50,399 nt of DNA from Candidatus Baltobacteraceae bacterium. Its GTDB lineage: Bacteria; Vulcanimicrobiota; Vulcanimicrobiia; Vulcanimicrobiales; Vulcanimicrobiaceae. Below the pieces are notes generated by a model. The model had not been told where the DNA came from. It saw nothing but the letters and a program-made list of their open reading frames with translations, and did not search any database. Made by a program: the position numbers and the translations under genes. The DNA lies in assembly GCA_036559195.1 (NCBI GenBank), contig DATBTN010000067.1:1-50399 (forward strand). The letters are read 5' to 3'. Of this stretch, positions 48,648 through 50,399 are shown piece after piece. Position 1 is the first letter of the stretch. Each line of letters begins with the position of its first letter.

Positions 48648-48810
48648 GAGTTGCAAGACGAGGGGCCTATGTATTCGCTGGACCACCCGTGAGACAGAGT
48701 TCGAGAAACGCTACGAATTGTGTCGACATCAGCATTCTCATGTCCACAGTATTCCCCGAATCGCACCCCATCACACGCACCAAATGCCCGCTTGCCCCCC
48801 CCCTCGACGT

Positions 48811-48850
48811 TGTCATCCTGAGCTTGTCGAAGGACGACCATGTCGAAGGA
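48811..48850. repeat. Dispersed extragenic palindromic repeat, copy 3 (inverted)
   Basis: TGTCATCCTGAGCTTGTCGA is followed by a repeated AAGGACGACCATGTCGAAGG, the inverse of the unit at 19021. As at 19021 a truncated second unit is attached. It lies just after rplT, within the 3' trailer upstream of the operon terminator. Confidence 0.7.
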
Positions 48851-48852
48851 CG

Positions 48853-49212
48853 TTACTTGCCGACCGCTTTTTTTGCGACGCTCAGGAGCGAGCCGAATGC
48901 CTTGGTGTCGGAGACGGCGAGTTCGGCCAGTGCCTTGCGATTGAGCGTGACGCCCGACTTCTTCAAGCCGTTCATCAGCACCGAATACGAGAGGCCCTCC
49001 TTGCGGGCGGCCGCGTTGATGCGGCTGATCCACAGCGAGCGAAAATCGCGCTTGCGGACGCGGCGATCGCGGAACGCATAGGAGAGTGAGTGCAGCAGCG
49101 CTTCGTTCGCAACGCGATAGTTGCGACGGCGCGCGGCGCGGAAGCCCTTGACGAGCTTCATTACCTTGCGGCGGTGTTTGAGGCCGTGAACGCCACGTTT
49201 GATACGAGCCAT
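48853..49212 (-). CDS. rplT: 50S ribosomal protein L20
   Basis: 119 aa, normal length. It begins with the L20 signature MARIKRGVHGLKHRRKVMKL (here Leu where Arg/Lys is more usual), and the conserved FRSLWISRINAAARKEGLSYS is intact. It binds 23S rRNA early in 50S assembly and in some bacteria represses the infC operon. Start 16 nt after rpmI. Confidence 0.97.
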   Translation of the reverse strand: MARIKRGVHGLKHRRKVMKLVKGFRAARRRNYRVANEALLHSLSYAFRDRRVRKRDFRSLWISRINAAARKEGLSYSVLMNGLKKSGVTLNRKALAELAVSDTKAFGSLLSVAKKAVGK

Positions 49213-49228: not shown

Positions 49229-49435
49229 TTACACCAAGTACGGAATCGTCGGCGCGAGGCGCTTGAGATCGCCCTTGAACACCGGTTGATCCTTGCGGAA
49301 ATTGCGTTTGCGCTTGCGCGTCCGTTTGCTCATGATGTGACCGCAACCGCTGAACTGGTGGCGATGCATCACTTTGCCGTTCGCGCTGACCTTCACGCGC
49401 TTGGCGGTTCCCCGGTGGGTACGAATTTTAGGCAC
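49229..49435 (-). CDS. rpmI: 50S ribosomal protein L35
   Basis: 68 aa, basic, with the L35 signature MPKIRTHRGTAKR. The GTG start at 49435 lies inside the infC coding sequence: the last codons of infC and the first of rpmI share GTGCCTAA, giving an 8-nt overlap that would couple translation. The middle carries SGCGHIMSKRTRKRKRN. Confidence 0.97.
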   Translation of the reverse strand: MPKIRTHRGTAKRVKVSANGKVMHRHQFSGCGHIMSKRTRKRKRNFRKDQPVFKGDLKRLAPTIPYLV

Positions 49436-50078
49436 TGGTAGGCTCCTCTGTCTTGACGTCCGCGTCGTGTTCCGGCTCGCGATCCTCGTCCGTCTCGTGC
49501 TCGGGCTCGACCTCGTGGGCGTGGTCGTGCTTATCGTGCGCTGAGAGGAACTTCGGCGGTCCGGTTGGCACCGCGCGCGGTGCCAAAATCATAAACATAT
49601 TCTTGCCTTCGAGTTTCGGTTCGCGCTCGACGATCGCGATCGGTGTCATATCCACCGCCATCCGGTCGAGCAGCCGACGGCCGAAGGCCGTGTAGGTAAT
49701 CTCGCGCCCGCGAAACATGATCGTGACTTTAACTTTGCTGCCGTCCTGCAGCAGACGTTCGGCCATGCGGGCCTTGGTCTCGTAGTCGTGAGTCTCGATT
49801 TTAGGCCGCAGCTTCACTTCTTTGAGTTCGAAGTTTTTCTGCTTCTTGCGGGTATCTTTGTCTTTCTTCTGCTGTTCGTATTTGAGGCGGCCGTAGTCGC
49901 CTATTTTGCACACCGGCGGTTGCGCCGTGGGCGAGACTTCGATCAGATCGAGACCGGAGACTCGCGCGCGAGCCTGAGCATCCTCGGTCAGCATAATTCC
50001 GAGCTGTGCCCCGTCCTCGTCGATGACGCGAACCTGGCGAATCCTAATCTGGTCGTTTATACGCAGCGGTCGAGCTAT
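49428..50078 (-). CDS. infC: Translation initiation factor IF-3, AUA start
   Basis: 216 aa. The conserved N-terminus ARPLRINDQIRIRQVRVID is present only if translation begins at ATA (50078-50076). An in-frame TAA lies 12 nt upstream of it and no ATG, GTG or TTG falls between. AAGGAG ends 6 nt before the ATA, ideal spacing. infC of E. coli likewise uses a rare start (AUU) that IF-3 itself discriminates against, an autoregulatory device. The C-terminal domain is typical, ending in an acidic tail of about 40 residues rich in Glu, Asp and His. It heads infC-rpmI-rplT. Confidence 0.95.
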   Translation of the reverse strand: MARPLRINDQIRIRQVRVIDEDGAQLGIMLTEDAQARARVSGLDLIEVSPTAQPPVCKIGDYGRLKYEQQKKDKDTRKKQKNFELKEVKLRPKIETHDYETKARMAERLLQDGSKVKVTIMFRGREITYTAFGRRLLDRMAVDMTPIAIVEREPKLEGKNMFMILAPRAVPTGPPKFLSAHDKHDHAHEVEPEHETDEDREPEHDADVKTEEPTSA

Positions 50079-50088
50079 GAGTCTCTCC

Positions 50089-50320
50089 TTTTAACTGAGA
50101 TTGCACTTCGCGCAATCTCCGGCACTCCGGTCCGCTTCCGACACGTTGCGTCGGAATCGGCCCTGCGCGCCCCCACCCCTGACTTCGCGGGTGGGACCCC
50201 GATTTTTTAACTGAGATTGCACTTCGCGCAATCTCCGGCACTCCGGTCCGCTTCCGACACGTTGCGTCGGAATCGGCCGTGCGCGCCCCCACCCCTGACT
50301 TCGCGGGTGGGACCCCGATT
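50089..50320. repeat. Two tandem copies of a 116-bp structured unit in the infC leader
   Basis: Copy 1 spans 50089-50204 and copy 2 50205-50320; they differ at one base (50163 C versus 50279 G). Each unit contains three hairpins: GATTGC/GCAATC, TCCGAC/GTCGGA and CCCACCC/GGGTGGG. On the plus strand the last stem is followed by six T residues, like a terminator pointing away from infC. On the minus strand TTGCGC and TTAAAA stand 15 nt apart in each unit, a weak promoter-like pair. No protein is likely encoded. Confidence 0.85.
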
Positions 50321-50328
50321 TTTTAAAC

Positions 50329-50356
50329 AAAAAAAAGGCGTCGCCGAAGCGACCCC
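50329..50356 (-). terminator. Intrinsic terminator upstream of the infC leader
   Basis: On the minus strand GTCGC-TTCG-GCGAC (50353-50340) forms a UUCG-capped stem, extended by two further G-C pairs beyond a mismatch, and is followed by eight T residues (50336-50329). It should end the gene lying beyond the window edge. If so, the infC promoter must lie within the tandem units. The last 43 bases of the window hold no visible feature. Confidence 0.75.
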
Positions 50357-50399
50357 ATCGATTGGAACCTACCGGCGGTCCCTCGGATGAAGACCGGAT

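Follow-up and report, generated by a model that had tools for sequence, protein, structure and literature searches.

The closest described kind of element to the one reported here is the family of BOX, RUP and SPRITE repeats of Streptococcus pneumoniae, which resemble it in being modular, highly structured, dispersed, non-coding and sometimes arranged in tandem. These pneumococcal repeats are enriched between convergent genes, and a BOX element has been found between T-box attenuators within a 5′ UTR (PMC3049150). The latter arrangement is similar to that of our unit, which follows an attenuator in the infC leader. In contrast to the pneumococcal repeats, the unit is enriched in sense orientation directly before start codons.

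Two further groups of systems invite comparison. The ERIC/IRU and REP/BIME repeats of enterobacteria are also around 100 to 130 nt long, palindromic, intergenic and transcribable within operon mRNAs. However, the unit differs from them in sequence and lineage, has three separate hairpins and shows a strong orientation bias, and, unlike the case of REP/BIME, a RAYT (Y1) transposase is absent from 95 of the 99 genomes of its family, its own included. Riboswitches and RNA thermometers that sequester the Shine-Dalgarno (SD) sequence are likewise structured 5′ UTRs at a ribosome-binding site, a likeness that extends to the short type of RNA described below, in which a conserved stem holds the GGAG, 10 nt away from the start codon. 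They differ from our elements, which have no known ligand or Rfam family and whose downstream genes share no pathway. Finally, the L20 leader (Rfam RF00558) and other ribosomal protein leaders place structured RNA upstream of infC-rpmI-rplT, but our unit matches neither RF00558 nor any other Rfam family, lies before many unrelated genes and is absent from most of the family's infC leaders.

Repeats dispersed in bacterial genomes tend to be interpreted as parasites that sit at neutral sites. Here we describe a structured RNA that occurs repeatedly at a gene's most sensitive point, right before the start codons of essential genes, in one orientation and with its base pairing kept. If functional, it would represent a dispersed repeat that has been adopted as a portable expression module.

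Two structured units in the infC leader

The window, by which we mean the whole 50,399-nucleotide stretch of DNA that was analysed, closes with an infC-rpmI-rplT operon, which is read from the minus strand (the mRNA sense at this locus). The first-pass annotation of this DNA had described two tandem, near-identical units lying between a terminator and the infC ribosome-binding site and ending at the latter, and this arrangement is confirmed. The units form a head-to-tail direct repeat on the minus strand (50089-50204 and 50205-50320), each 116 nt long, with 115 of 116 positions identical (99%). Unit A ends directly next to the infC SD (GGAG, 50085-50088), and on the far side of the units is an intrinsic terminator (hairpin at 50338-50355 followed by a T run). 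The three stable stems that had been proposed for each unit also hold. On the minus strand each unit folds into three hairpins (−59 to −62 kcal/mol; z = −4.4 and −5.3), and none of 200 shuffled sequences was as stable, which supports the reading of the units as structured non-coding RNA in the infC 5′ UTR. The features of the locus are as follows.

48853-49212, minus strand: rplT (L20), Pfam Ribosomal_L20
49229-49435, minus strand: rpmI (L35), Pfam Ribosomal_L35p
49428-50078, minus strand: infC (IF-3), Pfam IF3_N and IF3_C, with an AUA start codon at 50076-50078
50085-50088, minus strand: infC SD, GGAG, read from the sequence
50089-50204, minus strand: unit A, the 116-nt repeat copy adjoining infC
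50097-50119 (unit A) and 50213-50235 (unit B), minus strand: hairpin P3 (GAGAUUGCGCGAAGUGCAAUCUC), helix 6
50121-50171 (unit A) and 50237-50287 (unit B), minus strand: hairpin P2 (GGCGCGCAG...CGGAGUGCC), helices 2-5
50172-50200 (unit A) and 50288-50316 (unit B), minus strand: hairpin P1 (GGGGUCCC...GGG), covarying helix 1
50205-50320, minus strand: unit B, the 116-nt repeat copy adjoining the terminator, with one substitution relative to unit A
50329-50355, minus strand: intrinsic terminator of a conserved infC attenuator (GGGGUCGCUUCGGCGACGCC and a U run), from the sequence and an alignment of 21 leaders
50329-50399, minus strand: 3′ half of the conserved infC attenuator leader, whose 5′ half and putative promoter lie on the neighbouring contig C59 at 131-263 and beyond (locus L002)

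We built a covariance model of the three hairpins (R1) from 14 copies. Units A and B are both members of its seed alignment, and it matches them as such at 50094-50200 (minus strand, 104.7 bits) and 50210-50316 (minus strand, 99.4 bits), respectively. Counts of the GNA motif place a GNA/GNA internal loop in P2. Separately, the AUA start codon of infC is kept in most of the family's infC genes that we read, which fits the classical autoregulation of IF-3 via rare start codons.

Distribution across one family

Nucleotide searches of 60 relatives returned weaker copies in other genera and at unrelated places, some of them in tandem. With the R1 model, we found copies in at least 33 of 99 genomes of the same Candidatus Eremiobacterota family, and none among the best candidates from the other sampled families of the order or phylum. 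These multi-genome searches scored the best 25 to 40 candidates per genome, and genome-wide counts are therefore lower bounds. Scanning 84,980 species genomes with a sequence pattern yielded 28 stretches, nearly all of them in Candidatus Eremiobacterota MAGs. Three matches outside the phylum (an Acidobacteria MAG, Streptomyces and Geothrix) were discarded, as two had no match to the covariance model and one was at chance level. Rfam scans of the window and of the start of C59 (E values up to 1) matched the unit to no family, including RF00558, and our search of the literature on Eremiobacterota together with intergenic repeats or riboswitches found nothing. The three-hairpin unit is a structured RNA element, not catalogued before, whose copies are dispersed within a single bacterial family. 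Five loci (L107, L117, L124, L083 and L123) carry shortened copies without the apical part of P2 that keep P1, the base of P2 and P3; these are natural deletion variants.

Evidence for RNA structure

The covariance analysis suggested by the first-pass annotation strongly supports the structure. Across 83 copies, whose alignment was fitted to the model and hence leans toward the structure, 93.4% of paired cells hold standard pairs and double changes occur in 30 of the 35 pairs. Double-change cells number 450, compared with 106 ± 12.5 in shuffled alignments and at most 79 in slid controls, and none of 500 shuffles reached the observed compensatory changes by any of five measures. The MAFFT seed alone already has 21 pairs with double changes. 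Helix 1 (P1) is paired in 96.2% of cells among the 83 copies, and helix 6 (P3) has double changes in 9 of its 10 pairs.

Pairing is also maintained between copies that stand before the same gene within a genus. Among such same-gene pairs, 53 of the 64 paired positions that had changed on both sides still pair, and the tuf leaders can be aligned along their flanks too. That pairing is kept in same-gene copies within genera points to selection at the site, beyond spread alone.

Position relative to genes

Copies are strongly oriented. Of the 73 loci with a called downstream gene, 60 have that gene on the strand of the element (versus 13; P = 2 × 10−8). The start codon lies a median of 18 nt past the element (54 loci, with some start codons read by eye), typically a few to about 30 nt beyond it, and many insertions are within operons, right behind the upstream stop codon. 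Some 13 loci are either antisense or located between convergent genes, the convergent contexts numbering only 3, and these loci are unexplained by a strict 5′-UTR function.

The downstream genes are mostly housekeeping genes. Those identified with HMMs include ftsH, atpD, rimP, rpoD, rpsE, rpmC, gyrA, obgE, smc, the RNase J gene, lpd, rpsA, adk, gatB and infC; pdhA is also among the downstream genes, and tuf, like a few others, was identified by reading the sequence. Several recur across genera: rpoD in four, rimP in three, and infC, ftsH and lpd in two each. In some copies the SD is inside the 3′ arm of P3, so that P3 could sequester it.

From these sequence comparisons, we consider that the unit is probably a dispersed, lineage-specific 5′-UTR hairpin module that affects, in cis, either translation or mRNA stability. 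Co-transcribed with its gene, the hairpin array would insulate the downstream ribosome-binding site and/or shield or process the mRNA, and would in this way set the expression level of the cistron, while P3 may sequester the SD where the SD lies in its 3′ arm. Recombination would amplify the module locally.

Gain, loss and the possibility of a mobile repeat

Copies differ in their presence even between close relatives. In genome G100, the element lies between the dnaG stop codon and the rpoD SD, whereas the corresponding sites in G097, G102 and G041 are empty. Among the rpoD leaders of 30 close relatives, G046 alone has the element, and 20 further rpoD leaders include a truncated trace in G094 only; we therefore rejected the rpoD leader as a conserved site. 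Copies within one genome share an identity of 0.61, only slightly above the 0.56 for copies from other genera, which speaks against our main reading. Across genera, mean identity is 0.50 for copies before the same gene and 0.56 for copies before other genes. Same-gene copies in different genera are thus no more alike than others, and clustering by gene across genera was rejected, which is why we do not claim a conserved ancestral three-hairpin regulon. Together with the empty sister sites, this lack of likeness by gene points to rapid gain or loss and to repeated placement before genes of the same kind. Ready natural experiments are available in sister genomes of which one has an insert before a given gene and another lacks it.

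The same patchiness is what a small MITE- or REP-like mobile repeat would leave if it were purely parasitic, with its structure kept for mobility, its position a tolerated insertion and any effect on the gene incidental. We regard this explanation as rather unlikely. It draws on the patchy distribution and the empty orthologous sites, a MITE trait seen here in G100 versus G097, G102 and G041 and in G046 versus its relatives, as well as on insertion behind stop codons or terminators, tandem arrays and truncated copies. It is at odds with the strong sense orientation, the narrow range of distances to the start codon, the rarity of convergent contexts and the pairing that fixed sites retain within a genus. 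The only clear alignment of an empty site has A-rich flanks, and we recognised no clear target-site duplication in it. The unit has three internal stems, not terminal inverted repeats. A Y1/RAYT transposase as the mobiliser was rejected given its absence from the own genome and from nearly all genomes of the family, as noted above, which also counts against a REP-like element. The first-pass annotation had taken hits scattered across unrelated intergenic regions as the sign of a mobile repeat. Matches in relatives are indeed scattered before unrelated genes, but they are oriented and packed against start codons, not random.

The dispersed palindromic stems could in principle act as DNA sites instead, either as protein binding sites or as single-stranded DNA hairpins. 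On the sense strand, G·U pairs outnumber A·C pairs by 270 to 24 (82 to 24 when pairs with high G·U content are left out), so the sense strand is the strand whose pairing is kept, which fits RNA best, though G·T pairs in single-stranded DNA could be an alternative. Copies are, moreover, oriented and placed before start codons, and a DNA-level element is in our view very unlikely.

Copy number at infC

In its own genome, the three-hairpin unit is found at infC only, as judged by blastn and the R1 model. The sole further blastn match, at the very start of contig C59, was rejected as a second locus, because C59 is the neighbouring contig and overlaps the end of the window by 199 nt. Its first bases are the end of one unit; a full unit follows, and after it comes the flank seen in the window. 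C59 therefore independently supports at least two units, and two copies are seen in two contigs. Relative to the outer copy of the window, C59 has one substitution, one indel and one T/A difference, and the substituted base is that of the window's inner copy. These differences suggest variants in the sampled mixed population, or errors at the contig ends.

The duplication, as distinct from the element itself, is accordingly very unlikely to be an assembly artefact, even though the window stops 79 nt past the repeat and the overlap with the neighbouring contig contains those three differences. The window contig spans both copies with a real substitution between them, C59 begins inside one copy and runs into another, and other genomes also have tandem arrays, which we found at three other loci in relatives. 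The recurrence of such arrays makes the recombination and copy-number variation once suggested for the junction repeats plausible. At infC, the element may have arrived between the conserved attenuator's terminator and the SD, and would then have been duplicated by unequal recombination.

The conserved infC attenuator

The role first proposed for the units, that of a leader dedicated to infC which senses L20, IF-3 or some other ribosomal factor, is highly improbable: IF-3/L35/L20 operons are classically autoregulated and the unit precedes infC in two genera (in the window and at L120, an IF-3 gene by Pfam, where it lies directly past that locus's terminator), but it is absent from all 29 relatives' infC loci first sampled, precedes dozens of unrelated genes and shares the infC leader with a different, conserved attenuator that already occupies it.

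This attenuator lies immediately upstream of the units, and its leader is conserved in 21 to 22 genomes of the family. The conserved region comprises a promoter-like TTGAC/TATRNT pair, then GCCGAAGYAG, a hairpin of the form CACCGGAUGCC..GGGC..AUCCGGU, a third helix and, last, the terminator. The consensus structure is predicted to pair GCCGAAG with GCUUCGGC of the terminator hairpin, which would make antiterminator and terminator mutually exclusive. Double changes occur in 13 of its 27 pairs (21 leaders), and the attenuator leader at L120 has no Rfam match at E values up to 5. The infC attenuator is a better candidate than the unit for a leader that responds to L20 or IF-3.

A related short 5′-UTR RNA

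The pattern formed by P1 and the base of P2 (GGGGNCCC..GGGGGYGYGNAG) occurs in 70 of the 99 family genomes, with up to about 50 matches per genome, a forward count that overlapping matches inflate; its reversed control gave essentially none. Most of these matches belong to a shorter type of RNA, which consists of a helix P0 with a CCYMGGGGA loop, P1 and a short P2 ending in CGGAGCGCC, followed by the start codon. A second covariance model (R2) found this short type in at least 64 of 148 genomes, and it is far commoner than the three-hairpin unit. Its pairing reaches 98.6%, with controls far below, and its loci had no match in an Rfam scan. Of 80 copies, 45 have the start codon 0 or 1 nt past the modelled end. 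In 67 of 80 the 3′ GNA motif has G as its variable base, giving a GGAG roughly 10 nt ahead of the start codon; the corresponding base is mixed in the three-hairpin unit, whose SD is elsewhere.

Short-type RNAs precede many genes; those checked include dnaN, mreB, atpA, purC and rpsS in the own genome, with gapA, alaS, rpsH and rbfA among those in relatives. The copies in the own genome are located as follows.

C1:9022-9136: short-type copy (L230)
C31:21765-21874: short-type copy (L233)
C31:27976-28090: short-type copy (L234)
C33:12265-12375: short-type copy (L235)
C47:26124-26237: short-type copy (L238)

The infC unit is not a member of the short type, as it gives a partial match to R2 over P1-P2 only (12.7 bits, E = 0.14). 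Conversely, the R1 model matches the P1-P2 part of short-type loci at 19 to 28 bits, making common descent of this core plausible. We tentatively suggest that the infC unit and the short type may form one superfamily of 5′-UTR RNAs with a shared core of P1 and a GNA/GNA P2, which could have spread through the family as portable translation-initiation regions, possibly under common post-transcriptional control by some factor. In that case, each short-type copy would come with its own GGAG, set at a constant 10 nt from the start codon, and a single genome could have up to dozens of housekeeping genes preceded by one. The short type and the infC attenuator may matter more than the three-hairpin unit. 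If functional, the short type would constitute a large, uncharacterised class of 5′-UTR RNA in a poorly studied phylum.

Two other repeats were also observed. A third type combines P1, with a GCUUUGC-like loop, and P2 (L205, L212, L232, L237, L245, L248 and L253), is often followed by a further GGGGNCCCC hairpin and occupies varied intergenic spots, including sites beside tRNA genes. In the window at about 48770-48815, and also at loci L223 and L036, a hairpin-like GTCATCCTGAGC...GAAGGAC sequence lies between genes; it recurs in intergenic regions of relatives and looks like a separate dispersed repeat.
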